Part shown: positions 5,529 through 63,107 of the stretch, in pieces
How the letters are laid out: each line of letters starts with the position of its first letter
Position numbering within the stretch: the first letter of the stretch is position 1
Assembly (NCBI RefSeq): GCF_012971745.1
Contig: NZ_CP048834.1
Coordinates: 620,001 to 684,000 of the forward strand
Source of the DNA: Starkeya sp. ORNL1
GTDB lineage: Bacteria > Pseudomonadota > Alphaproteobacteria > Rhizobiales > Xanthobacteraceae
DNA length: 64,000 nucleotides
Reading direction: 5' to 3'
Made by a program: the position numbers and the translations under genes
The notes under the pieces: generated by a model
What the model saw: only the letters and a program-made list of their open reading frames with translations
The model's database searches: none
Told to the model about the DNA's origin: nothing

Positions 5529-5529
5529 G

Positions 5530-5925: not shown

Positions 5926-6007
5926 GTCGTCCGGGATATACGCCTTACGTGGCGGGATGACGAGAGTTTGGGGCTGAGTTTGGAGCGTAGCTAAGCTGTA
6001 GCTTTGC

Positions 6008-6122: not shown

Positions 6123-6129
6123 ACCGCGC

Positions 6130-8226
6130 TCACCCCGCTCCAAGCAATCTCACCGCAATATCCCGCTCGAACAGGTGCAGCAGCAGCCGCAGTGCGGGGC
6201 CGCGCGGGCCGCTCAGGTCGGGATCGTCGGCGACGATCGCGAGCGCGTCCTTCCTCGCCTTCTCCAGCAGGCCGCCATGTACCTCCAGCTGCGCCAGCTT
6301 GAAGCCGGGAAAGCCGCTCTGCCTGGTGCCGAGCACGTCGCCTTCGCCGCGCAGCTTCAAATCCTGCTCGGCGAGGAAGAAGCCATCCTCGCTCTCGCGC
6401 AGTGCCCGCAACCGCTGGCCGGCAACCTCGCCGAGCGGCGGGCGAAAGACCAGGAGGCAGGTCGAGGCGATGTCGCCGCGCCCGACCCGGCCGCGGAGCT
6501 GGTGGAGCTGGGCCAGACCAAAACGCTCGGCATGCTCGATGACGATGATGCTGGCCTCCGGCACATCCATGCCGACCTCGACCACGGTGGTAGCGACCAG
6601 CAACTGGGTTTCACCGGCGGCGAAGGCGGCCATGGCGGCGTCCTTCTCGGCGCCCTTCATGCGGCCATGGACCAACCCGACGCGCGCGCCGAAATGCGCC
6701 GTGAGGTCGGCGAACCGCGCCTCGGCAGCGGCGAGGTCCGAGGTCTCGGATTCGTCCACCAGCGGGCAGATCCAGTAGACCCGGCGCCCCTCGGCCAGCG
6801 CATGGCCGAGCCGCTCCACCACCTCGTGCAGGCGTTCCGAGGAGACGGTGCGGGTGTCGATCGGTTGGCGGCCCGCCGGCTTCTCGCGCAGTTCGCTCAC
6901 ATCCATGTCGCCGAAATAGGTGAGCACCAGGGTGCGCGGGATCGGCGTCGCCGTCATCACCAGCACGTCGACCGCCTCGCCCTTGGCGGCGAGCGCGAGG
7001 CGCTGGTGCACGCCGAAGCGGTGCTGTTCATCGACGATGGCGAGCGTGAGATCGCGGAAGGCGACGCTCTCCTGGAACAGTGCATGGGTGCCGATCAGCA
7101 GATCGATCTCGCCGGCGGCAAGCGCAGCAAGGAGCTGGTCGCGGGATTTGCCCTTTTCCCGCCCGGTGAGCAGGCCGACGCGCAAGCCCGCTGCCTCGGC
7201 AAGCGGGGCGACGGTCTTCATGTGCTGCCGGGCGAGAATCTCGGTCGGCGCCATCAGGGCAGCCTGCCGGCCGGCCTCCACCGCGGTAGCGGCAGCGAGC
7301 AGTGCCACCACCGTCTTGCCGGAGCCGACGTCGCCCTGCAGCAGTCGCAGCATGCGGTCGCCCGAGCCCATGTCGGTGCGGATCGCCTTCAAGGCCTCGC
7401 GCTGCGAGCCGGTGAGGCTGAAGGGCAGCGCCCGTTCGATGCGGCCGGCAATCTCGCTGGTGCCTAGACTCGGCCGGCCGGCATCGCGCACGGTGCGGGC
7501 GCGCACCAGGCAGAGCGCAAGCTGGCCGGCCAGCAGTTCATCATAAGCCAGCCGCCGCCAGGCGAGGCCCGAAGGCCCGGCCTCGGTGGGGTCGGCGGGG
7601 TGATGTATGGCCTCCAGTGCTGCGAGGAAGCCGGGCCAGGCTTCGGCTTGCAGCGTGTCATGGCCCTGCCATTCCGGCAGGTCGCGCACCAGACGCAGCG
7701 CGGCGTCGACGGCGCGGCGCACATGGCCGTGGCCGAGCCCTTCGACCAACGGATAGAGCGGCTCCACCGGCGGCAGGCGGGCAAGGCCGGCCTCATCCAC
7801 CACGCGGTCGGGATGCACCATCTGCCGCATGCCGTCATAGAGCGCGATCGAGCCGGAAATCCAGCGCGTCTCGCCGATGGGGAGCAGGCGTTCCATGCGG
7901 CCGCGATCGGCATTGAAGAAGACCAGCGTGACGTCGCCGGTATCATCGCCCACCACCACCCGATAAGGCGCACGGCTGCCGCGCGGCGGTGGGCGGTGCT
8001 GCTCGACCCGCACCTCCAGCGTCACCACGGTATCAGGTGCCGCCTCTGCGATGGTCGGGCGGGCGCGGCGGTCGATGGCGGAGGAGGGCAGGTGCATCAG
8101 CAGGTCGACCACCCGCGCACCTTCCGGCCGGCCGAGCAGCCGGGCAAATGGCTTCGCCAGCTTCGGCCCGATGCCGGAAAGCTCGGTGAGCGAGGCAAAA
8201 TAGGGGTTGAGGACGTCCGGCCGCAT
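6130..8226 (-). CDS. recG: ATP-dependent DNA helicase RecG
   Basis: A 698-residue superfamily 2 helicase that remodels stalled forks and Holliday junctions. An N-terminal wedge/OB region (PIGETRWISGSIALYDGMRQMVHPD) precedes the helicase core: Walker A LLQGDVGSGKTVVAL, DEQHRFGVHQR in place of DExH, TATPIPRTL, then VGMDVPEAS and the QLHQLRGRVGRG motif VI. The length is right for the family. The frame is open for 128 codons before the chosen ATG at 8226, but that part is low-complexity shadow sequence opposite the sdhE start. The gene diverges from sdhE-mfd, so two repair helicases share one intergenic region. Confidence 0.98.
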   Translation of the reverse strand: MRPDVLNPYFASLTELSGIGPKLAKPFARLLGRPEGARVVDLLMHLPSSAIDRRARPTIAEAAPDTVVTLEVRVEQHRPPPRGSRAPYRVVVGDDTGDVTLVFFNADRGRMERLLPIGETRWISGSIALYDGMRQMVHPDRVVDEAGLARLPPVEPLYPLVEGLGHGHVRRAVDAALRLVRDLPEWQGHDTLQAEAWPGFLAALEAIHHPADPTEAGPSGLAWRRLAYDELLAGQLALCLVRARTVRDAGRPSLGTSEIAGRIERALPFSLTGSQREALKAIRTDMGSGDRMLRLLQGDVGSGKTVVALLAAATAVEAGRQAALMAPTEILARQHMKTVAPLAEAAGLRVGLLTGREKGKSRDQLLAALAAGEIDLLIGTHALFQESVAFRDLTLAIVDEQHRFGVHQRLALAAKGEAVDVLVMTATPIPRTLVLTYFGDMDVSELREKPAGRQPIDTRTVSSERLHEVVERLGHALAEGRRVYWICPLVDESETSDLAAAEARFADLTAHFGARVGLVHGRMKGAEKDAAMAAFAAGETQLLVATTVVEVGMDVPEASIIVIEHAERFGLAQLHQLRGRVGRGDIASTCLLVFRPPLGEVAGQRLRALRESEDGFFLAEQDLKLRGEGDVLGTRQSGFPGFKLAQLEVHGGLLEKARKDALAIVADDPDLSGPRGPALRLLLHLFERDIAVRLLGAG

Positions 8227-8343
8227 CGTCGCGCGAGGGTGGACGAGCCGCGCGCGGAGTGCAATGTGGCGTCGCGATTGCCCACCGGCCATTCGCCGCG
8301 CTAAACACTGCGCCCTCTCGCATCTGCGAGCTTCGAGGCCCAT

Positions 8344-8640
8344 ATGACCGGCACCACCCGCTCCAGCGCCGATCTCGACCCGCGGCGGCGGCGCATCCTC
8401 TACCGTTCCTGGCATCGCGGCACGCGCGAGATGGACCTGTTGATGGGCCGCTTCGCCGACGCGCTGATCGACCAGTTGTCGGAACACGATGTCGCGGACT
8501 TCGAGCGGCTGATCGAGGTGGAGGACCCGGAGCTGTTCGCCTGGATCGGCGGTGTCACGCCGCCGCCGGAGCATGACACGCCGGTGTTCAAGCGGTTCAG
8601 GACATTCCATTTGTCGGGCGAAGGCGTTCCCGAAATATGA
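8344..8640 (+). CDS. sdhE: FAD assembly factor SdhE (succinate dehydrogenase assembly factor 2)
   Basis: A 98-residue protein of the DUF339/SdhE family that helps FAD attach covalently to the flavoprotein subunit of succinate dehydrogenase. The diagnostic RGTRE sequence (RGxxE) is at residues 25-29, followed by MDLLMGRFAD and DPELFAWIGG. Its stop overlaps the mfd start as ATGA, so translation is probably coupled. The sdhE-mfd pairing is a neighbourhood I recall from other alphaproteobacteria. Confidence 0.95.
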   Translation: MTGTTRSSADLDPRRRRILYRSWHRGTREMDLLMGRFADALIDQLSEHDVADFERLIEVEDPELFAWIGGVTPPPEHDTPVFKRFRTFHLSGEGVPEI

Positions 8641-48255: not shown

Positions 48256-48279
48256 GGCGTCGTGTTCCGGGAGGCCACC

Positions 48280-49089
48280 TTGGCGAGCCGCTCGTTCTGG
48301 AAGGGCTATCTGAAGCTCTCGCTGGTGACCTGCGCGGTCGCCATGACGCCGGCCACGACCGAAAACGCCAAGGTCCGGTTCCACACGCTGAACCGCAAGA
48401 CCGGTCACCGCGTCGTCAGCCAATATGTCGATGCCGAGAGCGGCAAGCCCGTTGATGAGGAGGACGAGGTCAAGGGTTATCCGCGCGGCGAGGACGACTA
48501 CCTCGTGCTGGAGGACGACGAGATCGACGCGGTGGCATTGGAGAGCACCCGCACCATCGACATCGAGATGTTCGTGCCGCGCGAGAGCATCGGCTGGATC
48601 TGGTACGACCGGCCGCATTATCTCACACCCGACGACGAGGTCGGCGAAGAAGCGTTCTCGGTCATTCGCGACGCCATGGAGGCGACCGGGACGGTCGGCG
48701 TCTCGCGGCTCGTGCTCTACCGGCGCGAACGCGCGGTGATGCTGGAGCCGCGCGACAAGGGCATCATCTTGTGGACGCTGCGCTATGGCGACGAGGTGCG
48801 CGACCCGGCCGAGTATTTCGGTGAGATCGGCAGGGGCAAGAGCGATCCCCATCTCATGGATCTGGTGTCGACGCTGATCGAGGAGCGCACCAGAGCCTGG
48901 GATCCGGACATGGTGGACGATCCGGTGCAGGCGCGCCTGCTCGACCTCATCGCCTCGAAGAAAAAGGGCAGGAAACGCCCCGCTAAGAAGGCCGAGCCGG
49001 AGATCGAAGCGCCACCAGGCAACGTCATCAACATCATGGACGCGCTGCGCAAGAGCCTCTCGACGGAAGCAAAGCCAAAGCGACGCTAG
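48280..49089 (+). CDS. ku: Bacterial Ku protein (first)
   Basis: A 269-residue Ku-core protein that binds DNA ends in non-homologous end joining. [35 protein letters not shown] and [14 protein letters not shown] are the conserved Ku core. A Lys-rich C-terminal tail ([15 protein letters not shown]) may contact DNA or LigD. The TTG at 48280 was chosen: GGGAGG lies five bases upstream and translation begins [12 protein letters not shown] as in other Ku proteins; the GTG at 48262 has no such support. It converges on ligD, seven bases apart. It is clearly divergent from the second Ku in this window. Confidence 0.94.
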
Positions 49090-49096
49090 AGCATTG

Positions 49097-51664
49097 CTAT
49101 GCCGCTTTCCTGCGCTTGCCCTGCCTTTGCTCAAGCGGAACCGCGGCGGCGCGGAAGCCCTCCCACGGATCGGACTTCAGGGCCGCGAGCCGGACGGGAG
49201 TATTGGCTACCGTGAAATAGGCCGGGCCGATACCGGGGTTGAGCTCATTCCAGGCCAGCGGCATCGAGACCGCGGCGCCCGGCCGGGCGCGGGTCGAATA
49301 GGCCGCTACCGCCGTGGCGCCGCGCTGGTTGCGCAGATAATCGACCAGTATCTTGCCGCGGCGCTGCGACTTGGTGATGGTCGAGACGAAGCGGTCCGGC
49401 GTGTCGGCGGCCATGGCGTCGGCGATGCCCTTGGTGAAGGCCTTCACCGCGGTCCAGTCCGCCTTGGGCTTCAGCGGGGCGACGACGTGCAGGCCCTTGC
49501 CGCCCGAGGTCTTCACGAAGGCGGCGAGGCCGGCATCTTCCAGGCGCTGGCGCACTTCTCCGGCTGCGGCGATCACCGTCTCCCACGGCACCTGTTCGCC
49601 GGGATCAAGGTCCATGATGATGGTGTCCGGCCGCTCCCAATCGGCCACCGTCGACCCCCACGGATGGATCTCCAATGTCGCCGCCTGCACCAGGGCGAGC
49701 AGCCCGTCGAGATCATTGATGCTGATCAGCGGCTCTTCGCCGGTCTCCTTCGGATCACGGACCAGCGCGACCTTTGGATTGATGCCCTTCCAGGCGTGCT
49801 TCTGGAAGAACTTCTCGCCCGTGATGCCGCTCGGGCAGCGCAGCAGCGCCAGTGGATGGCCGACGATGAAAGGCGCGATCTGCGGCCAGACTTCGGTGTA
49901 GTAGTCGGCGAGCCCTTCCTTGGTCACGCCGTCATCGGGCCAATAAAGCCGGTCGGGATGGGTAAGCTTCACGTTGCGGCGCGCCGGGGCAGGGGAGGCC
50001 GCCATCTTCGGCATCTCTCTCACCACGTCGCGTGCGGCCTTGTCCTCACGCAGCCCTCTGAACGAGGCATGGCGCAAATGACCATCGGCGGTCCAGGCGC
50101 GGAACTCGACCTCTGCCACCAGTTCCGGTCGCACATAGCGCGCCTGCCGGGCCTCATCCGCGGTTAGGCGCTTTGCAAAGGGACTGGTCTGGATCCGCAT
50201 GCGGTTGAGCCGGCGGAACAGTTCCTCGGCGACCGGCACGGTGAAACCCGTACCGACGCGGCCGACATGGACCAGGTCATCGCCATCATAGACGCCGAGG
50301 ATCAGCGAGCCGATCGCCTGGCGCGAGGTGGTCGAGGGCACATAGCCGGCGATGACGAATTCCTGCCGCGCCGAGCATTTCGACTTCACCCAGCTCTTGC
50401 CGCGTCCGGAGCGGTAGGGCGCATCGCGTAGCTTCGAGACCACGCCTTCGAGGCTCAGCCGGCAGGCGTGGCTCAACACCAAGTCGCCGTCCTCCTCGAA
50501 ATGGTCGCTGTAGCGGATGATGCCGGCATCCTTGCCGATAAGCTGTTCGAGCAATCTCTTGCGTTCGATCAATGGGAGGGCGGTGAGGTCATAGCCGTCG
50601 AGGTAAAGCAGGTCGAAAGCGTAGAACAGGAACCGGTCGCTGCGGCCTTCGCTGAGATCGGCCTGCAGGGCCGAGAAGTCCGAGGCGCCGGTATCCTTCT
50701 CGACCACCAGCTCGCCGTCGATCAAAGCGGTGCCGACCGGCAAGGCTTGCAGCGCCTGTACCACAGGCTTACCGAACTTGGCCGTCCAGTCGAGGCCGCT
50801 GCGGGTCAGCAGCTTGATGCGCCCGGCCTCGATGCGGGCCTGCAGCCGGTAGCCGTCGAACTTGATCTCGTGCAGCCAGCGCTCGCCGCGGGGCGGAGAC
50901 GCGATGAGGCTCGCCAGCGTCGGCTCAATGAAACCGGGCAGGGCGGCCTTGCTTGCTCCCTTGATGGTCGACGGGTCGGGAAGGGGCGGGTGCTTCTCCT
51001 CTTCCAATACGGCGTCATCGGACGGTGAGGCCGCTTTGGACTTGCGTCGGGACGCAGCTTTCTTGGCGATCTCGCCGGTTTTCGAGGACCAGCCCGGTTC
51101 CTCGCTAGCGACATCAGCGATCTCGCGGCCGGTCTTCACTGATTCCGGGCGTTCCTCGAGAATATCGGGCGCCTCCTCCGGCCGGGCGAATTCGTCGTCG
51201 CCCTTGATCAGCAGCCAGTTCTCCCGCTTCTCCCGCGGCTTGCCGTGCATGCGCACGAGATGCCAGCGGCCGTGGAGCTTCTCGCCATTGAGCTCGAAAT
51301 CGAGATGGCCCTTGGCGTAGCCCTTATGGGCGTCGCCGATCGGGGTCCAGGTGCCGCGATCCCACACGATCACGGTGCCGCCACCATATTCGCCTTTCGG
51401 AATGGTGCCTTCGAAGCCGCCATATTCGAGCGGATGGTCCTCGACATGGACGGCGAGGCGCTTCTCGCCGGCTACAAGGCTGGGGCCGCGGGTGACGGCC
51501 CAGCTCTTCAGCACGCCGTCCATCTCCAACCGGAAGTCATAATGCAGCCGCGTGGCGTCATGCTTCTGGATGACGAAGCTGTTGCCGGATTTGCGTCCCC
51601 GCCCGCCTTTGGGCTCCGGCGTCGCGGTGAAGTCGCGTTTCTTGCGATAGATTTCGAGCGCCAT
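49097..51664 (-). CDS. ligD: ATP-dependent DNA ligase D, three-domain form
   Basis: An 855-residue NHEJ enzyme. The order is a 3'-phosphoesterase (about 30-160, HYDFRLEMDG at 41-50 and DHPLEYGGFEG), a Lys/Ala-rich linker, a ligase (about 245-530, HEIKFDGYR with the adenylated Lys268, LYLDGYDLTALPL) and a primase-like polymerase (about 560-845, LTHPDRLYWPDDGVTK, IIMDLDPGE with the metal Asp pair). The phosphoesterase-ligase-polymerase order is one seen in other alphaproteobacteria, whereas Mycobacterium has polymerase first. It starts three bases after the second ku gene on the same strand, so these two form an operon. Confidence 0.97.
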   Translation of the reverse strand: MALEIYRKKRDFTATPEPKGGRGRKSGNSFVIQKHDATRLHYDFRLEMDGVLKSWAVTRGPSLVAGEKRLAVHVEDHPLEYGGFEGTIPKGEYGGGTVIVWDRGTWTPIGDAHKGYAKGHLDFELNGEKLHGRWHLVRMHGKPREKRENWLLIKGDDEFARPEEAPDILEERPESVKTGREIADVASEEPGWSSKTGEIAKKAASRRKSKAASPSDDAVLEEEKHPPLPDPSTIKGASKAALPGFIEPTLASLIASPPRGERWLHEIKFDGYRLQARIEAGRIKLLTRSGLDWTAKFGKPVVQALQALPVGTALIDGELVVEKDTGASDFSALQADLSEGRSDRFLFYAFDLLYLDGYDLTALPLIERKRLLEQLIGKDAGIIRYSDHFEEDGDLVLSHACRLSLEGVVSKLRDAPYRSGRGKSWVKSKCSARQEFVIAGYVPSTTSRQAIGSLILGVYDGDDLVHVGRVGTGFTVPVAEELFRRLNRMRIQTSPFAKRLTADEARQARYVRPELVAEVEFRAWTADGHLRHASFRGLREDKAARDVVREMPKMAASPAPARRNVKLTHPDRLYWPDDGVTKEGLADYYTEVWPQIAPFIVGHPLALLRCPSGITGEKFFQKHAWKGINPKVALVRDPKETGEEPLISINDLDGLLALVQAATLEIHPWGSTVADWERPDTIIMDLDPGEQVPWETVIAAAGEVRQRLEDAGLAAFVKTSGGKGLHVVAPLKPKADWTAVKAFTKGIADAMAADTPDRFVSTITKSQRRGKILVDYLRNQRGATAVAAYSTRARPGAAVSMPLAWNELNPGIGPAYFTVANTPVRLAALKSDPWEGFRAAAVPLEQRQGKRRKAA

Positions 51665-51667
51665 CGA

Positions 51668-52540
51668 TCAACTCGCCTTCCGGCGCGGCGCGGCGGGCTT
51701 CGCCGACTTGGATACCGCAGGCTTCGCCGATTTGGACGCCGCGGTCTTCGTCGCTGTCTTCTTGCCGCCAAGCCCGGCGCTTTCGCGCAGCGCCGCCATG
51801 AGGTCCACGACCTTCTCGCGCCGCGGCGCCTTGCGGACCTCGATCTTACGGCCTTCGAGCTTGGCCTTGACCAGTTCGGCCAAGGCCGCCTCGTAGCGAT
51901 CCTCATAGGCAGATGGGTCAAACGAGCCTTTCTTGGTCTCGATGATGTGCCGGGCGAGGTCGAGCATCTCGTCCTTGGTCTTCATCTCGGGCACGCCGTC
52001 GAACGCTTCCTTCGCGGACCGCACCTCGTAGTCGAAATTGAGCGTGTTCGCGATCAGCCCGTCGCCGTCAGCGCGGATCAGCAAGGTGCGCACACGCCGG
52101 AACAGCACGGCTTGTGCGATCGCGGCCACCTTCTTCTTGCGCATGCCTTCGCGGATGAGGATGAAGGCTTCGGTCGCCGTCTTGTCGGACGGCGCGAGAT
52201 AATAGGGCTTGTCGAAATAGACGTCGTCGATCTCGGCGAAGGGAATGAAGGCGGAGACATCCAGCTTCTTGTCGCTTTCCGGCACCACGGAGGCGACTTC
52301 CTCCGGTTCCAGCATCACATAATCGCCCCGGCCAACCTCGTAGCCCTTGACCTGGTCGTCCTTCTCCACCGGCTTTCCGGTGTCGACATCGACGAACTGG
52401 CGATGGACGCGGTGTCCGGTCGCGCGGTTGATGGTGTGGAAGGCGATGCGGTCGGAGGTCGAGGCGGCGGTGAAGAGCGCCACCGGGCAGGTGAGCTCGG
52501 CGATCTTCAGATAGCCCTTCCAGTTCGCCCGCGGTGCCAT
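51668..52540 (-). CDS. ku: Bacterial Ku protein (second)
   Basis: A 290-residue Ku homologue. NWKGYLKIAELTCPVAL, FHTINRATGHRVHRQFVD and QVKGYEVGRGDYVML form the core. The C-terminal tail is longer than in the first copy and is built from repeated SKSAKPA units, a Lys/Ala/Ser-rich region like those that modulate DNA binding in other bacterial Ku proteins. It is the first gene of the ku-ligD operon. The intergenic region up to 52731 is shared with the divergent chromate-resistance genes. Confidence 0.95.
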   Translation of the reverse strand: MAPRANWKGYLKIAELTCPVALFTAASTSDRIAFHTINRATGHRVHRQFVDVDTGKPVEKDDQVKGYEVGRGDYVMLEPEEVASVVPESDKKLDVSAFIPFAEIDDVYFDKPYYLAPSDKTATEAFILIREGMRKKKVAAIAQAVLFRRVRTLLIRADGDGLIANTLNFDYEVRSAKEAFDGVPEMKTKDEMLDLARHIIETKKGSFDPSAYEDRYEAALAELVKAKLEGRKIEVRKAPRREKVVDLMAALRESAGLGGKKTATKTAASKSAKPAVSKSAKPAAPRRKAS

Positions 52541-52731: not shown

Positions 52732-53571
52732 ATGTCATCGAACACCGAAATCACCGCATCGCAGTTGGCGCGCCTTGTCGGCCTGCCGACCGGCCCGACC
52801 ATCGTCGATGTCCGCACCGATGCGGACTTCGCCGCCGATCCGCGCCTGGTGCCCGCTTCTCTACCTCGTGACGCTTTGGCGGTCACCGCATGGGCGGCGG
52901 AATTCACCGGGCAGGACGTCGTCATCCTCTGCCAGAAGGGCGCGAAGCTCAGCGAGGGCGCAGCGGCCTGGCTGCGTCACGATGGGATCAAGGCTGAGAC
53001 GCTCGAGGGCGGCTTCGAGGCCTGGCGCGCCGCGGGTGGGCTGCTGGTCGCGACCGGCAAGCTGCCGCCGCGCGACGAGTTGGGGCGTACCGTCTGGGTC
53101 ACGCGGGCGCGTCCCAAGGTCGATCGCATCGCCTGTCCCTGGCTGCTCCGCCGCTTCGTCGACCCGAACGCCGTCATCCTGTTCGTGACGGCGTCGGAAG
53201 TGCCGGCGGTGGCCGAGCGCTTCAAGGCAACGGCGTTCGACATCGACGATGTGTTCTGGAGCCACCGCGGCGAACGCTGCACCTTCGACACCATGATCGA
53301 GGAGTTCGGACTCTCCTGCGCGCCGCTGGATCGTCTGGCGACCATCGTGCGGGCAGCCGATACCGCGCGCCTCGACCTCGTGCCGCAGGCGGCCGGCTTC
53401 CTCGCTGCATCGCTCGGCCTCTCCCGCATGTTCCGCGACGACCTCGACCAGCTCGAAGCCGGTATGCTGCTCTATGACGCCTTCTATCGCTGGTGCCGGG
53501 ACGCCACCGAGGAGACGCACAATTGGCCTTCCAGCGCGAAGCCGGCGTGGGGGAGGCCGCGATGTCGATAA
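52732..53571 (+). CDS. chrB: Rhodanese–ChrB fusion, chromate-resistance regulator/accessory protein
   Basis: A 279-residue cytoplasmic protein. The N-terminal rhodanese domain (residues about 10-110; VDVRTDADF, VVILCQKGAKLSEGAA with the active-loop Cys, GGFEAWRAAGG) is joined to a ChrB C-terminal domain (WVTRARPKVDRIACPWLLRRF, cut here as RPKVDRIACPWLLRRF; GERCTFDTMIEEF; AAGFLAASLGLSRMF). ChrB proteins sense chromate or aid its handling. The ATG at 52732 follows GGGTGGA; the frame is open 18 codons upstream. It overlaps chrA by ten bases. Confidence 0.9.
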   Translation: MSSNTEITASQLARLVGLPTGPTIVDVRTDADFAADPRLVPASLPRDALAVTAWAAEFTGQDVVILCQKGAKLSEGAAAWLRHDGIKAETLEGGFEAWRAAGGLLVATGKLPPRDELGRTVWVTRARPKVDRIACPWLLRRFVDPNAVILFVTASEVPAVAERFKATAFDIDDVFWSHRGERCTFDTMIEEFGLSCAPLDRLATIVRAADTARLDLVPQAAGFLAASLGLSRMFRDDLDQLEAGMLLYDAFYRWCRDATEETHNWPSSAKPAWGRPRCR

Positions 53572-54959
53572 TCGTCACGACGGACGAGCCTGTCGCCATG
53601 CCCACCGCTCCGACCTTTGCCGAGGCGACCAGGGTATGGGCCAGGATCGGCCTCCTGAGCTTCGGTGGGCCGGCCGGCCAGATCGCCCTCATGCACAAGG
53701 AACTGGTCGAGGAGCGCCGCTGGATGGGCGAGCAGCGTTTCCTGCATGCCCTCAATTACTGCATGCTGTTGCCTGGCCCGGAGGCGCAGCAACTTGCCAC
53801 CTATATTGGCTGGCTGATGCATCGCACCCTCGGCGGGCTCATCGCCGGGCTGCTGTTCGTGCTGCCCGGCGCCCTCGTGATGCTGGGCCTCAGTATCCTC
53901 TATGCCGTCTATCGCGAGATACCGCTGGTCGACGCCGTGTTTTTCGGCGTGAAGGCCGCGGTGCTCGCGGTGGTGGTCGAGGCAGTGCTGCGGATCGGCA
54001 GGCGAGCCCTCAAGAACCGCACCATGGTTGCCATCGCGGTCGCGGCCTTTATCGGCATCTATGTCTTCCACGTTCCGTTCCCGCTCATCATCCTGATCGC
54101 GGGCTTGGTCGGCTGGATCGGCAGTCGGCAGGCACCCCAACTCTTCACGGCCGGCGGGCACGGCTCGAAGGGGGATACGCCCGATTTCAAGGGCGTCGTC
54201 GATTTGATGTTCGAGCGCGGTGAGCTTGCCCATGCCGACCCATCCCGGGGGCGAGCCTTCCGCGTGCTGGCGATCTGGCTGCCGGTCTGGCTCGGACCAG
54301 TGCTGTTGCTCTGGCTGTTCACCGGCTCCGCCAGCGTGTGGACCCAGATCGGCGGCTTTTTCAGCGCGATGGCAGTCGTCACTTTCGGGGGCGCCTATGC
54401 GGTGCTGGCCTATGTCGCACAGGCCGCGGTGGGCAGCTTCGGCTGGCTCGCGCCGGGGGAGATGGTCGATGGGCTGGGGCTCGCCGAGACCACGCCCGGA
54501 CCCCTGATCATGGTGCTCCAGTTCGTCGGCTTCCTCGCCGCCTATCGGACGCCCGGCACGCTCGATCCGCTCCTTGCCGGCTGCCTCGGCGCGCTGCTCG
54601 CCACCTGGGTGACGTTTGCGCCGTGCTTCCTGTGGATCTTCCTCGGTGCGCCCTATGTCGAGGCGCTTCGCGGCAATCCGGCGATCTCGGCGGCGCTGTC
54701 GGCCATCACCGCCGCCGTGGTCGGCGTGGTGATGAACCTTGCGCTCTGGTTCGCGCTGCATGTCGTGTTCCGCGAGGTGCGGACCTTCGAGATATTCGGC
54801 ATCGGCCCGGACCTGCCCGTGCTGGCCTCGATCGACTGGAGGGCGGCGCTGCTCGCCGCTTGCGCGATGATCGCGATGCTGCGCTTCAAGGTCGGCATGA
54901 TGCCGACGCTTGGCGCCTCCGCCGCAGCTGGAGTGCTGCTCACGTATTTGTTTGCGTGA
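53562..54959 (+). CDS. chrA: Chromate efflux transporter ChrA, long (two CHR-domain) form
   Basis: A 465-residue inner-membrane protein with two homologous CHR halves. The first has RIGLLSFGGPAGQIALMHKE and MLLPGPEAQQLATYIGW; the second has FFSAMAVVTFGGAYAVLAYV and GLAETTPGPLIMVLQFVGFL. About ten to twelve membrane segments are visible. It exports chromate taken up by sulfate carriers. The ATG at 53562 follows GGGGGAGG and overlaps the end of chrB, so the two are one operon. Confidence 0.96.
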   Translation: MSIIVTTDEPVAMPTAPTFAEATRVWARIGLLSFGGPAGQIALMHKELVEERRWMGEQRFLHALNYCMLLPGPEAQQLATYIGWLMHRTLGGLIAGLLFVLPGALVMLGLSILYAVYREIPLVDAVFFGVKAAVLAVVVEAVLRIGRRALKNRTMVAIAVAAFIGIYVFHVPFPLIILIAGLVGWIGSRQAPQLFTAGGHGSKGDTPDFKGVVDLMFERGELAHADPSRGRAFRVLAIWLPVWLGPVLLLWLFTGSASVWTQIGGFFSAMAVVTFGGAYAVLAYVAQAAVGSFGWLAPGEMVDGLGLAETTPGPLIMVLQFVGFLAAYRTPGTLDPLLAGCLGALLATWVTFAPCFLWIFLGAPYVEALRGNPAISAALSAITAAVVGVVMNLALWFALHVVFREVRTFEIFGIGPDLPVLASIDWRAALLAACAMIAMLRFKVGMMPTLGASAAAGVLLTYLFA

Positions 54960-56769: not shown

Positions 56770-57417
56770 TCAATCGCGATCCGGCGCACCGAGCGGGAAG
56801 AAGGGGCGGTACGGCCGCGCCTCGTCAACCGCGCGGGCGAAAGAGGGTCGCGCCAGCAGGCGTTGACGATAGGCATGCACGTTCGTGAAAGCTGCGCCGA
56901 TCGTGTGCGTCCAGTCGGCGTAGAACAGCGCCGGCGCCGCCGCACAATCCGCAAGGCTGAAAGCGCCACCCGCCGCCCATTCCCGTCCAGCCATCACGCC
57001 GTCGAGCCAGCCATAGGCGGTGTCGAGCATCGCGCGAGCTTCGTTCGCGCCGTAGGGATCGCGGTCGGCCTCGGGCCGGATGCTGTCGAACACGATCTTC
57101 TGCTGGGGCGTCGAGATGTAGTTGTCGAAGAAGCGATCCATCAAGCGGACCCGGAGCGCCCCGTCGCGATCGACGGGGATGAACCTCACGGGACCCGGAT
57201 GATGCAGGTCGAGGTACTCGATGATGATGCTGGATTCGAGGATCGTCGCCCCTTCGTCCTTCAGGATCGGGAACCGCTTGATCGGCCATAGGGCGGTGAA
57301 CTCGGCCATGGTCGGCGTGTCGTCGAGCATGCGGAACTCGAACGGCGTGTCGTTCTCATAGAGCGCGATCAGGGCTTTCTGGCAGTAGGAGGAGAAGGGG
57401 TGGGCATAAAGCTGCAT
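56770..57417 (-). CDS. Glutathione S-transferase family protein
   Basis: A 215-residue protein. The N-terminal thioredoxin-like domain (LYAHPFSSYCQKALIALYEN, 1-80) carries SSYCQK as the probable thiol-interacting site and FPILKDEGATILESSIIIEYL for glutathione binding, cut here as EGATILESSIIIEYL. The C-terminal helical domain contains SLADCAAAPALFYADW, the GST N-capping region. The ATG at 57417 was chosen for its family-typical start. The substrate is unknown. It is on the same strand as pncA. Confidence 0.92.
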   Translation of the reverse strand: MQLYAHPFSSYCQKALIALYENDTPFEFRMLDDTPTMAEFTALWPIKRFPILKDEGATILESSIIIEYLDLHHPGPVRFIPVDRDGALRVRLMDRFFDNYISTPQQKIVFDSIRPEADRDPYGANEARAMLDTAYGWLDGVMAGREWAAGGAFSLADCAAAPALFYADWTHTIGAAFTNVHAYRQRLLARPSFARAVDEARPYRPFFPLGAPDRD

Positions 57418-57498
57418 CGAGGTGGCTCCATGGCGAGGGGTCACCTCAAGGACGAATTACGGCGCCGATTTCCGACATGGTCGGCGACGGCAATGAGC

Positions 57499-57933
57499 CT
57501 AGATGGTCAGCTCGCCTTCGTCGGTGCCGTCCCAATAGTGGATGCGCGACGCGTGGACCTTGATCAGCACGAGGCCGGCCGTGTCCACGCCCTCCTCGAA
57601 CCAGTTGGTGAGATCCGAAGTCCAATGTGTCTCGAATTCCGCCTTGTCCCGGATCAGCGTTGCGTTGCCTTCGACCGCGATGAAGATCGGCGGGGTGCCG
57701 AACAGGCCTTTCCTGCCCTGCAATGAGAGGCCGACGTGCGGATCGCGTTCGATCTCGGAGACGACATGAGTGTGGTCGAGCGCGAAGAAGAAGGAGTCTC
57801 CATCATATTCGACATCGCCATTGTTGCTCATGGGCCGCGCCGCAATTCCGCCGCCGGGCGTGTGCGTCGACAGCATGGCGAAATCGATGTCCCGCATCTC
57901 TTTCGAGATGTCCGAAAGCGTCATTGTGCTCAC
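57499..57933 (-). CDS. PNPOx-fold general-stress-type flavin protein
   Basis: A 144-residue split-barrel protein of the pyridoxamine-phosphate-oxidase-like family. FAMLSTHTPGGGIAARPMS, LDHTHVVSEIERDPHVGLSLQ and HYWDGTDEGEL follow the general stress protein 26 pattern, in which the dimer binds FMN or FAD. The GTG at 57933 has a GGAGGA site; an ATG three codons later is possible. It follows the secreted-protein gene by 128 bases and may be the last gene of the cluster that starts at 61606. Confidence 0.85.
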   Translation of the reverse strand: MSTMTLSDISKEMRDIDFAMLSTHTPGGGIAARPMSNNGDVEYDGDSFFFALDHTHVVSEIERDPHVGLSLQGRKGLFGTPPIFIAVEGNATLIRDKAEFETHWTSDLTNWFEEGVDTAGLVLIKVHASRIHYWDGTDEGELTI

Positions 57934-58061
57934 GTTCGTCCTCCAGCTTTGTGGAGTGGGAACGTTCGGCGCCGGATTTTGATCCCGCCGACTGTCATGC
58001 GACGACGCGGCTGGCGGCCACGCGGACTATCGCCGCCTGGCCGCCAGGTCTTCACCAATCG

Positions 58062-58505
58062 TCATGGCCTGGCGGCCTGCACCTCGGGCTTCACGAGCGC
58101 ACGAATGCCCGCGAAGATACGCCCGGGAAACAGCCTGCCATACGCGACCACGCCGTCGTCCTTCCACGTCAGGCGATCTCCGGAGAGAGCGAGCGTGCTG
58201 CAATCCCAGGTCTTTGGCGGGGCGATCTCGGTCTGGTCGTCATCGGGATCATAGGCAAGGCAGAGCTTGTTGCCGTCTATGCGCCACCAGCCCCGATACG
58301 ATTCCCTGTTGTTGCGGCCGACGATCGCACCGTTCGGCTGCAAGAACTCCTCGTAATACTTGCCGTCCTCGATGCCGATGATGGTATTTCCGACGACCCG
58401 GGCACGGATTTCAGCGCCGCTGAGCTCGCCCTCCGCGGCGAGAGCGCCGGTGTGGAGCGGCAGCAGGATCAAGAGGATAGGTCCCAGATACTTGATGGCA
58501 TGCAT
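58062..58505 (-). CDS. Small secreted protein of unknown function
   Basis: A 147-residue protein with a Sec signal ending at ALAAEG. The mature part has LSGAEIRARVVGNTIIGI, a Gly/Tyr-rich beta pattern with YYEEFLQPNGAIVGR and YRGWWRIDGNKLCLAYD, and a single Cys pair. This is a calycin-like or DUF995-like pattern common in Hyphomicrobiales, of no known function. The GGAGGA site fits the ATG at 58505. It starts 24 bases after the membrane-anchored protein gene and probably belongs to the same operon as the FAD-methyltransferase fusion. Confidence 0.7.
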   Translation of the reverse strand: MHAIKYLGPILLILLPLHTGALAAEGELSGAEIRARVVGNTIIGIEDGKYYEEFLQPNGAIVGRNNRESYRGWWRIDGNKLCLAYDPDDDQTEIAPPKTWDCSTLALSGDRLTWKDDGVVAYGRLFPGRIFAGIRALVKPEVQAARP

Positions 58506-58529
58506 GATCTTGTCCTCCGCAGTTTGCTG

Positions 58530-59369
58530 TCAGCCGAGAAGGTACGGATAGGCGACAAAGCCGAGATCGCAGAGCAGTACGAACAGGATCGCGAGCTCCA
58601 CCTTCAAGTTTCCATTGGCCTGTTGGGCCTCGAGCAGTCGCGAAGTGATGAGTTCGTAGTGTTCGAGCGCGAAATCGATCGGTTCGCCCAGCACTTCGAG
58701 GCGATCGTAAAGCTCGGCCTGCAAGGCGAGCTCGCCGAACAGACGCTTTGAACCGGCCTGAAGCGCGCGATCGAGCTGCTCGAGCGTAGCCTCAAGCCGC
58801 AGCGCTGAACTTGCCATTGCCGTCACCGTTTCCGCGACGCGACTGACCTTCGCCTTGCGGAACCATTGGTCCCGCGCATAGACGGTGTGCGTCAGGCGGG
58901 TGTCGCGCCGGATCGCCGGCCAGATGGCGGACATCCTCGCTTCGAGCGCGCTGGTGTCGCGCTCGGCGATGGTGAAGCGGGTCACCGCGTCCAGTGCCTC
59001 GTCGAGCTGTTCCGGCGCGGCGTAGACGATGGCAAGCGTATCGGTCCAAACGACGCGGGCGGTGCGCAGACCGGCCCGAACGACGCGGCCGGCTGCCGTG
59101 CTCACCATGGGAACGCCGGCAAGCCAGGGAATTTCGATATCCGTCGACGCGCCGGGCGGCATCCACAGCACCGCCAGCGACTTGCCGCCATCATCGTGAA
59201 TCGTCGGCGGTGGCATCCGGAGATCCTCTGCCATCCATCTCGCATAGACGGTGCGGGGCTCCGTAATCGTGTCGACGCGATCTTCGGTCTCTAGCGGACG
59301 GGTCCGGAAACGGACGCGCCAGGCTTTTGCCTCGATATCGGGCAGATGCACGACATTGGTTTTCAGCAT
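58530..59369 (-). CDS. C-terminally anchored membrane protein of unknown function
   Basis: A 279-residue protein with a soluble N-terminal domain (residues 1-150), a long helical region likely to form a coiled coil (about 180-245, AELYDRLEVLGEPIDFALEH), and one C-terminal membrane helix (LAILFVLLCDLGFVAYPYLL). This topology resembles RMD1/DUF155 proteins, but the sequence motifs do not match well enough to assign it. AGGGAG precedes the ATG at 59369. It starts 53 bases after the fusion protein gene, which suggests a membrane tether or partner for that enzyme. Confidence 0.75.
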   Translation of the reverse strand: MLKTNVVHLPDIEAKAWRVRFRTRPLETEDRVDTITEPRTVYARWMAEDLRMPPPTIHDDGGKSLAVLWMPPGASTDIEIPWLAGVPMVSTAAGRVVRAGLRTARVVWTDTLAIVYAAPEQLDEALDAVTRFTIAERDTSALEARMSAIWPAIRRDTRLTHTVYARDQWFRKAKVSRVAETVTAMASSALRLEATLEQLDRALQAGSKRLFGELALQAELYDRLEVLGEPIDFALEHYELITSRLLEAQQANGNLKVELAILFVLLCDLGFVAYPYLLG

Positions 59370-59422
59370 GTTACTGCTCCCTGTCGATCATCGAAATCAG
59401 GTGACTCTGGTTGGTCTGCTAG

Positions 59423-61606
59423 TCAGGGATTCGGTGCGGTGATGAGCGCGGCCGGAATGCGCTCATCCTCATAGAGGTGATCGCGAATGATCCGCTCGGC
59501 CGCCTCGATGGCGTCGAGATCCTGCGCGGCACTCGCTTCGGTGCCGTAGAAGCAATAGAGGACGCTCTCGGGGTCCTCGTACCAGACGCCTGATGCGAGG
59601 CCGGCGGCGACCGTTTTCTTCCAGACCACGTCCAATCGCCGCGGGTCGGCCAGCGCAAATCCGAAGCCGACGGCGATCAGCTGATCCGCCCAGTCCCAGC
59701 GAGAGGTGAAGGTACCGATGCCGGACAGCAACTCCTTGCGCTCCACGAACTCGATCGGCAGGTCAACGGTAGCGGAGCCAAGGACCAGGCCGTACCGGGT
59801 GACGCGGCGGACCTCCTTCAGCAGATCGGAAAGCTGTGCGCGCTCGAAGCGGCAGAGGCCGGTGTCGAGCACCACGTCGAAATAGCCCGCGGCGAGCTTC
59901 ATATCCGCCAGCGCGCAGCACAGATTGACCTCGCGCAGCTCACGCGGTGTCTTTGCCCAGACCGAGCGGCTCGGCTCGATACCGATAGCGTCGAAGCCGA
60001 GGGCGCGAAGACCGGCAACGAGCCGGCCGCGGCCGGAGCCGATATTGAGGATGCGGGCGCCGGGGCGCACGCCCCACACCAGTTCGAGCAGTTCGGCGAG
60101 ATAGGAGGCATTGAAGATCGCCCCTTGCTCCTCGTCGTCACCGATGAACCAATGGCTGATCGTGGTGCCGCCGATGCGTTCCTTCCGGTAGGCTTGGCGC
60201 TTGCCCAGGATCTCCGCCACCAGGATATCAGTCGCGGCATCGGCGGAATCGAGGACGCCATTGAGCGTCGCATCGAACAGGTAGTCGCCGACCGTGATCA
60301 GGCCCGGAAGCTGTTCGGCTGTCGGCCGATGATTCTGGTAGGGGCTCCGCACCGGGTAGCCGCCGGGAATGGCGTTGACCGATGCCATCCAGCGATGGAC
60401 GCGGCTGTCGACGATGAGCCGCTTGCCGATGGCGAGCTCCGGCGGAAGCGCATCGAGGCATAATTTCTCGATCTCGCTATCGGAGAGGTTCGCGAGCCCC
60501 AAGGCGGCGTTTCCGGCAATCAGGAAGCCGAGTACGCCCCAGCTGCCGATCGCGTTGCGCGCGCCCTCGTCATAGACGCAGCAACCGTCGAAGGCGTCGA
60601 GCATCCACCACGCGCCCGGCAGCAGTTCGCGCCAGAACGGACGCTGAAAAACCAATGTTGCGCGCAGATAATGGCCCGGCCGGTCGAAATAGTTGATGTG
60701 CCGTGCCATGGCCTGCTGGAGGTGCGGCGATCGCCAGTCGATGATGGAGAGCGCCGTCAGTGGCAGGCACAGCACGACATAGTCGGCCACGATGGCCTCG
60801 CACGTGCCGTTGATGCACATGCCGAGCTGATAGGTCCCGTCGAACAGTGGCCGGACCGAATTCAGGGATGCGTTGAACCTGACATCGGCATCGATCTGCT
60901 CGACCAGGCGATCGACGATCTGCTCATTGCCGCCGATGACGGAGAAGACGTCGATATAGCCTTCACTGTCCATCAGGGCGTTCTTGAGGAAGGTGAGCCC
61001 GTTGGTGAGATGCGGCGGCGCGGCGACATCGCTGTGCGCCATCACCCGCACGTATCGGCGGGCCATTTCGTCGGACATCTCCGCGGCGATTACGTCCTCC
61101 CCGGATATGCGAGCCCAGGGATGGCGGTTGTCGACGTTACGGGCGCTCGAGTAATAGTCTTGCGGCCGAAGCATTTCGGTGCGCTTCTGCCGAAACGCGC
61201 TGACCTGCTCCTGCGTCACGTCGCCGAACTCGGCACCAAGATGATCACTGTCTACGATGATCTTGCTGTCGAGTATGCAGGCGCCACCGGAAATGTGCTT
61301 GATCTCCAATCCCAGTTCGTTCTGGATCAGATCGCGCAGCGGATCCGGGCCAAGCGCGGAATAGTCATAGATTTCCGCAACCCCGGCTTCATAGATGCCG
61401 ACTCCGGCAAGTTCCTTGGTGACGATCTTTCCGCCGAGCCTTTCACTGGCTTCGTAAATCGTGATCGAGCAGGCGTTTCCAGCCTTTGCCGCGAGATGCC
61501 GGGCGGTGAATAGACCTCCGGGTCCGCCACCGATAATAGCAACCCTGTACTTTGGAAACGACGAATCAACTGAAGAAAAGTCCGATGCAACCGGTATATC
61601 CTTCAT
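59423..61606 (-). CDS. FAD amine-oxidase-like protein fused to a SAM-dependent methyltransferase
   Basis: A 727-residue protein with no signal peptide. Residues about 18-470 form a flavin amine oxidase/phytoene-desaturase-type fold: YRVAIIGGGPGGLFTARHL at 20-38, EASERLGGKI at 52-61, IGGNEQIVDRLVE at 224-236 and the C-terminal FAD motif LITVGDYLFDATLNGVLDSA at 436-455. After a short linker (470-500), residues about 500-690 form a class I methyltransferase: ARILNIGSGRGRLVAGLRAL at 517-536 (motif I), IGIEPSR, and FDVVLDTGLCRFERAQLSDL at 576-595. A GAGGAGGT site precedes the ATG. Next come a membrane-anchored protein and a secreted protein. The substrate is unknown; a secondary metabolite or pigment is one guess. 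Confidence 0.88.
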   Translation of the reverse strand: MKDIPVASDFSSVDSSFPKYRVAIIGGGPGGLFTARHLAAKAGNACSITIYEASERLGGKIVTKELAGVGIYEAGVAEIYDYSALGPDPLRDLIQNELGLEIKHISGGACILDSKIIVDSDHLGAEFGDVTQEQVSAFRQKRTEMLRPQDYYSSARNVDNRHPWARISGEDVIAAEMSDEMARRYVRVMAHSDVAAPPHLTNGLTFLKNALMDSEGYIDVFSVIGGNEQIVDRLVEQIDADVRFNASLNSVRPLFDGTYQLGMCINGTCEAIVADYVVLCLPLTALSIIDWRSPHLQQAMARHINYFDRPGHYLRATLVFQRPFWRELLPGAWWMLDAFDGCCVYDEGARNAIGSWGVLGFLIAGNAALGLANLSDSEIEKLCLDALPPELAIGKRLIVDSRVHRWMASVNAIPGGYPVRSPYQNHRPTAEQLPGLITVGDYLFDATLNGVLDSADAATDILVAEILGKRQAYRKERIGGTTISHWFIGDDEEQGAIFNASYLAELLELVWGVRPGARILNIGSGRGRLVAGLRALGFDAIGIEPSRSVWAKTPRELREVNLCCALADMKLAAGYFDVVLDTGLCRFERAQLSDLLKEVRRVTRYGLVLGSATVDLPIEFVERKELLSGIGTFTSRWDWADQLIAVGFGFALADPRRLDVVWKKTVAAGLASGVWYEDPESVLYCFYGTEASAAQDLDAIEAAERIIRDHLYEDERIPAALITAPNP

Positions 61607-62216
61607 AGCTACCTCCTCGAAGCAGCGACGATGACCGGTTTAACCGCAGAAGGCCGACCTGTTCTTACGCGAATAAACCGAATTCTGAGCGCAGCCACGC
61701 CATGCGCCGGTCGCGATGCGGCGGCGCTTGAGCATTCGGATCGGGTGATCCAGAATTTGCAGATATCGTAGGTCAGGTGACGTCCCGGATTCGTGCGCAT
61801 GGGCGACGGTTGTCAGCCGGGGCGGATGCGACGAAGACCGACAGCGGCGAGCCTCCCAGCCAGCCAATGCTTTATCTTATTCCAAACATATTATAGCTGT
61901 TTTCGAACTATTTCAACTGCAAGTCAGCATTAACTTGCATCGCCTTGTGCCGAGGTAAGATAAGACCACCAGATTACGCCGGGATGTTTCGAAAATTCGA
62001 CGCCCGCAATGATTTACTTCGTTTTTATGGACGCTCTCTGCGGTGAAAGTATAGAGATATTGCAGAACTGCGGCAATTACTCGATATATATGATGCTTAA
62101 CGATGCAATGGTGATCCTTTTCCATCGCTGATTATCCGGAGAAATATTTGCCTAGATACGAAAGCGCCGCGCGCGGGGCACTTTCGATTGCCGAACGTCT
62201 CGGAATTTCCGTATCC
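61607..62216. other. 610-base AT-rich intergenic region
   Basis: The stretch is markedly richer in A and T than either flank (for example 61860-62110), and no convincing gene was seen. Short frames on the minus strand (around 61913-62125) have no RBS or family. It must carry the promoter of the fusion operon and the 3' end of the gene at 62217. The base composition suggests acquired DNA or a large regulatory region. Confidence 0.55.
61890..61916 (-). promoter_or_regulatory. Candidate sigma-70-type promoter for the FAD-methyltransferase operon
   Basis: On the minus strand TTGAAA (61911-61916) and TATAAT (61890-61895) are separated by 15 bases, an unusually good match for a GC-rich genome. It lies about 285 bases from the ATG at 61606, so the leader would be long. 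This is a visual match only. Confidence 0.35.
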
Positions 62217-63107
62217 TTACCGCTCGGGCGACACGGTGTGGTTGGCTAGCATTTCGAGCGCCTTGACCATCGCCGAGTGATCCCACGCCGCGCCGCCATG
62301 GGCCGCGCAGGCGCTGAACAGCTGCTGGGCGAGGGCGGTGGCCGGCAGCGAAAGCTGCAGCTGGCGCGCGCCGGACAAAGCGAGGTTCAGGTCCTTCTGG
62401 TGCAGCTCGATGCGGAAGCCGGGCGCGAAGGTGCGCTTGACGATGCGTTCGCCATGCACTTCGAGGATGCGCGAATTGGCGAAGCCGCCCATCAGCGCCT
62501 GGCGCACCTTGGCCGGATCGGCGCCGGCCTTGGAGGCGAACAGCAGCGCTTCGCTGACCGCGAGGATGTTCAGCGCGACGATGATCTGGTTCGCCACCTT
62601 GGTGGTCTGGCCATCGCCATTGCCGCCGACCAGGGTGATGTTCTTGCCCATCTTCTCGAACAGCGGCTTCACCGTCTCGAAGGCAGCCTCCGGGCCACCG
62701 ACCATGATGGTGAGCGAAGCGGCCTTGGCGCCGACCTCGCCGCCGGAGACCGGGGCGTCGAGATAGTCGCAGCCGAGTTCGTTGATCTTTTTCGCGAACT
62801 CCTTGGTCTCGACCGGGGCGATCGAGCTCATGTCGACGACGATCTTGCCCGCGGTAAGGCCGGCGGCGACGCCGCCCTCACCGAACAGCACACGCCCGAC
62901 ATCATGCGTATCGGGCAGCATGGTGAAGACGATGTCGGCCTGTCCCGCCACGTCCGCAGAGCTGACACAGGCAATGGCGCCGGCCTCCTTAAGCGCCCGC
63001 GGCAAGCCGCTGCGCGAATGGCCATAGAGCTCGTGGCCTGCCGCCAGCAGGTGGCCCGCCATCGGTGCGCCCATGATGCCGAGACCGACAAATCCAACCT
63101 TCGCCAT
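62217..63107 (-). CDS. 2-hydroxy-3-oxopropionate (tartronate semialdehyde) reductase
   Basis: A 296-residue beta-hydroxyacid dehydrogenase that reduces tartronate semialdehyde to D-glycerate with NAD(P)H. GFVGLGIMGAPMAGHL at residues 5-20 is the cofactor-binding fold, DAPVSGGEVGA is the substrate-binding loop, and TKVANQIIVALNI carries the catalytic Lys. HQKDLNLAL in the C-terminal domain fits GarR/GlxR proteins. It follows the aldolase gene by 26 bases on the same strand, so the two form a glucarate/galactarate or glyoxylate-to-glycerate operon. Confidence 0.93.
   Translation of the reverse strand: MAKVGFVGLGIMGAPMAGHLLAAGHELYGHSRSGLPRALKEAGAIACVSSADVAGQADIVFTMLPDTHDVGRVLFGEGGVAAGLTAGKIVVDMSSIAPVETKEFAKKINELGCDYLDAPVSGGEVGAKAASLTIMVGGPEAAFETVKPLFEKMGKNITLVGGNGDGQTTKVANQIIVALNILAVSEALLFASKAGADPAKVRQALMGGFANSRILEVHGERIVKRTFAPGFRIELHQKDLNLALSGARQLQLSLPATALAQQLFSACAAHGGAAWDHSAMVKALEMLANHTVSPER

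Follow-up and report, generated by a model that had tools for sequence, protein, structure and literature searches.

What could a flavin-dependent oxidase domain and a methyltransferase domain accomplish together in one polypeptide chain, and how does this relate to the membrane protein and the exported protein that are encoded directly behind them? The question is raised by a locus of Starkeya sp. ORNL1 within the stretch of 64,000 nucleotides that was analysed here (the window). Its relevant features are:

59423-61606, minus strand: fusion gene, 727 aa, with an FAD domain of the PF01593 fold (~residues 17-470) and a class I SAM methyltransferase (~485-700)
60173..61606, minus strand: FAD half of the fusion, residues 1-478, with GGGPGG at 26-31, the invariant H312-Y313-x-R315 and a C-terminal FAD motif at ~439-455
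59426..60172, minus strand: methyltransferase half of the fusion, residues 479-727, with motif I GSGRG at 523-527
58530-59369, minus strand: membrane partner, 279 aa, with one C-terminal hydrophobic stretch, directly after the fusion
58062-58505, minus strand: small exported protein, 147 aa, with a signal-like N-terminus and no Pfam family
57499-57933, minus strand: PNPOx-like protein, 144 aa, matching PF16242/PF01243
61607..62216, minus strand: upstream region of the fusion, 610 bases, with two sigma-70-like matches

The frames, and the gaps of 53, 24 and 128 bases that are passed on the way from the fusion gene via the membrane and exported-protein genes to the PNPOx gene, are as the first-pass annotation had described them. 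The sigma-70-like matches are weak, with 4 found vs. 1.3 expected across the whole of 57300-62400.

Domains and motifs of the fusion protein

The 727-residue protein had initially been read as a flavin domain joined to a class I methyltransferase, and this fusion is real. Pfam detects PF01593 at residues 30-458 (E 3e-26; 93.1 bits vs. a curated cut-off of 19.8) and PF08241 (Methyltransf_11) at residues 520-605 (E 3e-7; 31.5 bits vs. a cut-off of 21.2), the same genome encodes a second copy with 79% identity that was duplicated as a unit with its membrane gene and exported-protein gene, and relatives occur at many loci in other genomes. The second copy and these loci rule out a chance fusion as well as an assembly artefact at the joint, which had been named as a possible refutation. 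The nucleotide-binding motifs for FAD and SAM are intact in both halves. In the methyltransferase half, the motif I glycines G523 and G527 are present in 58/58 and 57/58 family sequences, respectively, the middle position 525 being Ala in 44/58 and Gly in 14/58, and the acidic residue E544 after strand 2 is kept in at least 97% of the sequences; the C-terminal half therefore has the characteristic residues of a class I SAM methyltransferase. A structure prediction of both domains had been suggested, and AlphaFold2 models each of them with confidence (pLDDT 87.4, pTM 0.88). Intact motifs and the confident model rule out gene decay, against which the motifs had already been taken to argue.

With MAO, putrescine oxidase and L-amino acid oxidases, the fusion shares the PF01593 fold and the FAD motifs. 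The mark of amine oxidases of the MAO/PAO/LAAO type is a conserved lysine near the flavin N5 (K305 in MAO-A), whereas R315 of the fusion aligns with this position, as counted along the HMMER alignment, and the arginine is invariant in 58/58 family sequences. Because of this invariant exchange, it appears doubtful that the flavin half carries out an ordinary amine oxidation, and the original label “amine oxidase” is equally doubtful as a name for its activity.

Structure searches, which speak for the flavin half and hardly cover the methyltransferase part, gave amino-acid and amine oxidases, renalase, protoporphyrinogen oxidase and phytoene desaturase as fold neighbors. PADLOC reported two weak matches to the fusion (5e-7 and 8e-5).

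In plant cyclopropane synthases, the methyltransferase belongs to the CMAS family (PF02353). The window's fusion has a generic Methyltransf_11 domain instead, and the Pfam search gave no match to PF02353 in the methyltransferase half at 1e-3, while a UfaM-like protein from a related genome, which served as positive control, matched at 1e-84. The missing PF02353 rules out a membership in the CFA-synthase fusion family.

Spread of the family and its membrane partners

The fusion is a member of a conserved, unnamed family that is mainly rhizobial. Relatives are encoded in 253 stretches of genome contigs, of which 80 were kept for analysis, and a protein search in which 7998 candidates were scored gave 808 matches, with lengths of 638-1187 aa among the 120 listed. 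Gene calls at part of the loci come from a custom codon-usage caller, and the genes of L017, L021 and L173 were recovered by tblastn. Trees of the FAD half and of the methyltransferase half resolve the identical three clades (A, B and C), with a long-branch warning from the program and with seven clade-A rows and L175 placed without knowledge of their partner. In one sample of 397 genomes of the order, 34 encode the fusion (1e-60, two candidates scored per genome), 14 of them in genus g24 and 12 in genus g66, these being counts of carriers and not shares of each genus. As few candidates were scored in each genome, weaker relatives could be missed in these searches across the order. It had been considered that the two halves might usually be separate genes in relatives, but the fusion is the rule: one genome, G024, has the family split into two abutting frames, and among 106 genomes of the class, the flavin-half profile at 1e-20 detected fusions only, in 2 genomes, and no close relative in which the flavin half stands alone. 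No paper on the fusion or its product was found by literature queries that required nearly all terms together and thus are a thin test of absence, and none was found under presumed locus tags of the interval between rpoC and rpsL.

The main point lay beyond the reach of the first-pass annotation: in two of the three clades, the partner of the fusion is an ABC exporter. In clade B, the Bradyrhizobium clade, and in clade C, the f20/g66 clade, the fusion is followed by an exporter of the MsbA/P-gp type, which has ABC_membrane (PF00664) and ABC_tran (PF00005) in one chain, as seen in the partner proteins of L034 and L162, and a clade-B example matches ABCB4, Sav1866, TM288 and MsbA. The exporters differ from MsbA/P-gp by an acid-rich N-terminal extension (in L034 also a C-terminal one) and by being restricted, within the sample of 397 genomes, to the vicinity of the fusion. 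In this sample, the exporter was detected in 29 genomes (E<=1e-110, three candidates scored per genome), all of which are among the 34 fusion genomes, at a distance of 69-403 bases from the fusion, and in none of the 363 fusion-less genomes (Fisher p 3e-39, kinship ignored). In case of clade B, the exporter follows the fusion in 94/94 judgeable locus records, and the pair often lies between rpoC and rpsL. These records come from a group of 96 with 85 different fusion proteins, in which L033 belongs to the window's clade and the 3.5-kb contig of L024 ends just behind the fusion. In case of clade C, the exporter likewise follows in 10/10 f20/g66 loci, where the pair is located behind a TRAP transporter. 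The contigs of G637 and G861, which are under 5 kb, do not show the partner. With PADLOC, the clade-B exporter matches mads_3 (1.4e-32) and mads_8 (1.1e-9), which we take for ABC-ATPase similarity.

In the window's clade, A, another protein takes this place. Whether the membrane and exported genes travel with the fusion had been posed as a check, and they do so in several genera: the membrane partner follows the fusion in 18/18 distinct places, and the exported-protein gene is present in 11/18. The PNPOx gene, which had been included in the putative pathway, is beside the fusion in the window only among the 18 places (in two of which, L015 and L092, the downstream DNA is too short to judge), and it is thus ruled out as a member of the system. 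The 147-aa exported protein has the expected signal-like stretch, at residues 4-25, and no Pfam family at 1e-3. The 279-aa membrane partner has, as predicted, one membrane helix at its C-terminal end, where the single strongly hydrophobic stretch is found (windows from 251-279), the best earlier 19-residue hydrophobicity window reaching 1.06. It was detected in 3/397 order genomes (1e-6, six candidates scored per genome), with the fusion adjacent in all 3, and never together with the ABC exporter in one genome of this sample. The fusion is strictly linked to one of these two alternative membrane partners.

The model of the 279-aa protein comprises a small alpha/beta domain and long helices, the last of which has 59 residues and ends in the hydrophobic stretch, and this shape, with a stalk helix that would enter the membrane, may be likened to that of CorA/ZntB metal channels. 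CorA/ZntB channels have two TM helices and a GMN motif, whereas the 279-aa protein has one hydrophobic segment, no GMN motif and no Pfam match to the CorA/ZntB or DUF155 (Rmd1/RMND1) families, nor to any other at 1e-3, and its profile found nothing in a PDB sequence search at E<=5. PF02582 (DUF155) is missing both from the 2 families that the protein matches at E<=5 and from the 25 families (out of 38) that were listed for 45 relatives at E<=1, and it has no match in the window's own genome. A single hhalign comparison of the 279-aa family with DUF155, using 4 DUF155 sequences and no control, gave a weak alignment of the C-terminal helical/TM part (probability 66%, E 5.5e-5, 148 columns). The papers listed for DUF155/RMND1 deal mostly with RMND1 disease, and the single match in PMC10632474 is to DUF1559. 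None of the tests made identifies the clade-A membrane partner as a transporter, and an export step is thus conjectural for the window's genome.

Possible function and alternative explanations

We see about even chances that these genes constitute a so far undescribed system of alphaproteobacteria, in which a fusion of FAD-dehydrogenase and SAM-methyltransferase makes a membrane-destined molecule by a chemistry that does without the classical amine-oxidase lysine, and in which this enzyme is the obligate partner of a membrane protein, a role in which the ABC exporter and the CorA-like one-helix stalk protein can replace each other. How such a system might work can be proposed more tentatively, with chances that we place somewhat below even: the fusion would be a two-step oxidation/methylation tailoring enzyme that passes its product on to a membrane protein dedicated to it, which in two clades is an exporter. 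The flavin half would strip electrons from the substrate in a dehydrogenation or desaturation that differs from amine oxidation with the usual help of a lysine. The methyltransferase half would place a methyl group from SAM on the same or the next intermediate, although it may also act on something other than the product of the flavin half. The product would pass to the membrane partner, whose gene comes next, and in clades B and C, the MsbA/P-gp-type exporter would move it out of the cytoplasm. The cargo would most likely be lipophilic, for example a lipid of the membrane, although none of the tool results points to a lipid. In the window's clade, the stalk protein that stands in place of the exporter probably tethers the enzyme to the membrane, on whose other side the small exported protein may be active. 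Through this partner swap, nature itself allows two modes of membrane coupling to be compared within one enzyme family, and the strict enzyme-exporter pairing gives a direct handle on the chemistry, as any molecule that the enzyme mutant or the exporter mutant no longer releases would be a candidate product.

Which other explanations could account for these genes? It is possible, if rather unlikely, that the fusion converts an amino acid into a small natural product or a signal by a VioA-type oxidation, a methyl cap and ABC secretion. The best fold matches include VioA, putrescine oxidase and L-amino acid oxidases, there is a weak match of the family profile to the SAM methyltransferase LahSB, the exporter linkage is compatible with secretion, and other flavoprotein genes lie near some of the loci: 36/96 clade-B records have a PF01494 gene on the opposite strand, and 4 loci have a second PF01593 gene. 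However, the lysine of this oxidase class is the invariant arginine of the family, the clades share no neighbor beyond the partners in the gene clusters read, and the stable gene block in Bradyrhizobium-type genomes would be unusual for a secondary metabolite. The fold matches also bring up a repair enzyme, whose renalase-like flavin half would act on damaged nicotinamide cofactors and whose methyltransferase would dispose of the product prior to export. This is very improbable, as an L-amino acid oxidase ties with the renalase matches (29.4), PPOX, VioA and MAO are within ~2 units, amine oxidases rank first in Foldseek, and repair needs no dedicated exporter.

The domain order leads to a further idea, which we consider improbable, namely that the protein is a bacterial version of the fusion that plants have for cyclopropane/furan fatty acids, with a phospholipid acyl chain being methylated and then desaturated as by UfaM and UfaD. 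Cotton GhCPS has an N-terminal FAD oxidase domain of ~400 residues and a C-terminal SAM methyltransferase (PMC3132707), Arabidopsis AtUFAMD1 resembles UfaM as well as UfaD (PMC10940516), and UfaM and UfaD are a SAM methyltransferase and a flavoprotein that work successively on one molecule, the methylated acyl chain being desaturated by UfaD (PMC7380195); an exporter or stalk-protein partner is not mentioned in the respective passages of PMC3132707 and PMC10940516. The cotton synthases (GhCPS1-3) thus have the domain order of the window's fusion, and the original remark that this is not a described family has to be qualified, as the layout is described in plants with another methyltransferase family. 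Three UfaD-like proteins, named for their DUF1365 neighbor, scored highest among seven PF01593 proteins compared, and a FabI-like gene lies past the exporter on the opposite strand in 5/10 clade-C loci. Against this idea, the UfaD match is mainly limited to the Rossmann motif, and the methyltransferase half lacks the PF02353 match. Moreover, the UfaM-UfaD-UfaO system of Cereibacter/Rhodobacter sphaeroides and Rhodopseudomonas palustris consists of separate genes with a CMAS-type methylase and the DUF1365 oxygenase UfaO, features that the window's system lacks; DUF1365 has 0 matches in the window's genome, while 21/41 sample genomes are positive.

Finally, the neighbors could be linked by chance or shared ancestry, with the fusion acting alone in the cytoplasm. 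The clade-B pair resides inside a stable ribosomal/RNA-polymerase block, where neighbors can persist without a common function, but in clade C, this exporter type is found behind the fusion in a different setting, it is absent at the chosen threshold from all fusion-less genomes of the sample, and the enzyme, membrane and exported genes were duplicated jointly in the window's genome, and we consider this explanation improbable. As the fusion-exporter pair is present in many Bradyrhizobium genomes and, at another place, in at least 12 f20/g66 genomes, it is likely important to its hosts.

An intact, conserved fusion protein with an unusual flavin site

The fusion protein of the window belongs to an intact and conserved family whose flavin site is unusual. 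The genes concerned are:

Window 59423-61606, minus strand: fusion of a PF01593 flavin half and a class I SAM methyltransferase half, 727 aa
Window 58530-59369, minus strand: membrane (stalk) protein, 279 aa
Window 58062-58505, minus strand: exported protein, 147 aa
Window 57499-57933, minus strand: PNPOx gene
Locus record L120, 7293-10836 (G000:C1, about 1803-1806 kb; G000 is the window's genome): second copy of the fusion, membrane-protein and exported-protein genes

When 5.8 billion proteins were searched, 808 matched the fusion; among the 120 matches listed, the length ranges from 638 to 1187 aa, and the majority is labelled with both kinds of Pfam domain. According to the first-pass annotation, halves that are usually separate genes in relatives would refute its view. 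A profile of the flavin half only, applied at 1e-20 to 106 genomes of the class, has matches in just two of them (the window's own and G991), and each match is a fusion. Moreover, the flavin and methyltransferase halves were each placed in a tree of 58 sequences, of which 55 are different; both trees contain the identical three clades A, B and C with a support of at least 97 on both measures, and the halves therefore have travelled together.

A lysine at the position of K305 in MAO-A is characteristic of MAO, polyamine, L-amino acid and histone-lysine oxidases. In an HMMER alignment with the family profile, with the position counted by hand, this lysine is aligned with R315 of the family, which is invariant together with H312 and Y313 in 58/58 sequences from all three clades. 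The family thus lacks this lysine, although its fold and FAD motifs are retained. The SAM motif of the methyltransferase is mostly kept, with G523 in all 58 sequences and G527 in 57, while position 525 is occupied by Ala (44 sequences) or Gly (14 sequences).

Within the window's family, 47 of 149 genomes carry the fusion over its full length. It was found in 34 of 397 genomes of an order-wide sample, and in 11 of 398 genomes of a phylum-wide sample, every one of the latter from the window's family. The family count includes G024, in which the fusion is split into two abutting frames (L122, G024:C1:5993000-6008000); the break near record position 6000031-6000034 corresponds to about residue 367, which falls inside the flavin domain rather than at the boundary of the two domains, and the exporter described below still adjoins. 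Within the window's genus, the distribution is patchy (2/30 genomes), and an acquisition is conceivable. The window's own genome has two copies, and all three genes (fusion, membrane and exported protein) are duplicated as a set: compared with the window, the enzyme of L120 is 79% and its membrane protein 66% identical, and its exported protein shares 53% identity with the counterpart in locus L011.

One of two membrane partners

In the genome sample, every fusion with an assessable neighbourhood has a membrane partner, either the 279-aa membrane protein or an MsbA/P-gp-type ABC exporter. The same 397 genomes of the order were searched for the fusion, the exporter (E<=1e-110) and the membrane protein (E<=1e-6). 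The exporter was found in 29 genomes, all among the 34 with a fusion and always at a distance of 69-403 bases from it (Fisher p 3e-39, a descriptive value only, as kinship is ignored). The membrane protein was found in three genomes (G000, G601, G881), with the fusion adjoining in each and the exporter in none, and the contigs of the remaining two fusion genomes, G637 and G861, are shorter than 5 kb. Each fusion of known neighbourhood therefore has exactly one of the two partners, and at these thresholds neither partner was found without the fusion in the 397 genomes. As few candidates were scored per genome, this rule applies to close relatives only.

Clade A includes Xanthobacteraceae, Xanthobacter, G601, Hyphomicrobium, Methylocystaceae, Rhodoblastus, some MAGs (named Acetobacteraceae, Rhodospirillales and Proteobacteria) and G991 from outside the order. 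The first-pass annotation had asked whether the membrane and exported genes travel with the fusion, and in 18 distinct places selected from this clade, including two from the window's genome, the membrane protein gene indeed follows on the same strand in 18/18. The exported protein is encoded in 11/18 places, close by in nine and some 1.2-1.3 kb beyond in L016 and L019, a count limited by the contig end in L015. The PNPOx gene, which had been proposed as a possible part of the system, was seen only in the window among the 18 places, of which L015 and L092 have too little downstream sequence to judge, and can be set aside. In L172 (G601; 5390-8562), one fusion is followed by two tandem pairs of membrane-protein and exported-protein genes.

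In the clade-B group (Bradyrhizobium, Tardiphaga and relatives), the exporter follows the fusion in 94/96 records; one of the other two belongs to clade A, and the other is located at a contig end. An rpoC cluster lies within 8 kb in 88/96 records, an rpsL cluster in 62/96 and both in 60/96, with one member of each verified by Pfam in L027. In Bradyrhizobium-type genomes, fusion and exporter are often found between rpoC and rpsL-rpsG-fusA (L027 5537-16945, L174, L176-L179, L212-L214). In clade C (family f20, genus g66), the exporter follows in 10/10 loci, located behind a TRAP transporter (DctP verified in L162, DctM in L164); it is of the same kind as that of clade B, with 44-47% identity. 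Exporters of both clades (e.g. L034 12186-14210, L162 11321-13171) have an acid-rich N-terminus with D/E runs, and that of L034 also has an acid-rich stretch at its C-terminus.

Among the gene clusters inspected, other neighbours recur in only a fraction of the loci: a PF01494 flavoprotein gene near the exporter on the opposite strand (36/96 clade-B records, e.g. L178 5477-6703), a second PF01593 gene (four loci), an SDR-like gene (four records), and a FabI-like enoyl-ACP reductase gene (PF13561) on the opposite strand past the exporter (5/10 clade-C loci, e.g. L162 13232-14047).

Known fusions and a possible pathway

In plant cyclopropane synthases, the methyltransferase is preceded by an FAD oxidase domain (about 400 residues) at the N-terminus, and cotton GhCPS lost about 70% of its activity without this domain, whose role was open in 2011 (PMC3132707). 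Arabidopsis AT3G23510, named AtUFAMD1, is similar to bacterial UfaM and UfaD (PMC10940516); the methylated acyl chain from UfaM is desaturated by UfaD (PMC7380195). These systems are a precedent for the logic of the fusion, but the fusion is not a member of their group, as its methyltransferase half is not of the CMAS type (the positive control matched) and DUF1365 has no match in the window's genome. A narrow literature search found no publication on the fusion family.

The fusion would catalyze two steps, an oxidation and a methylation, and the product would then pass to or through the membrane. Our best guess is a lipid-like cargo, given an exporter of the MsbA/P-gp kind and a known fused precedent that acts on acyl chains.

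Other genes in the window

Window 48262-52540: two Ku genes (PF02735) either side of a LigD gene (PF21686, PF13298, PF01068), assigned by Pfam
Window 53493-54959: chromate transporter gene (PF02417), assigned by Pfam

The Ku-LigD-Ku genes represent an end-joining set that has two paralogues of Ku. In case of the chromate transporter gene, the start of the longest ORF overlaps the upstream frame.
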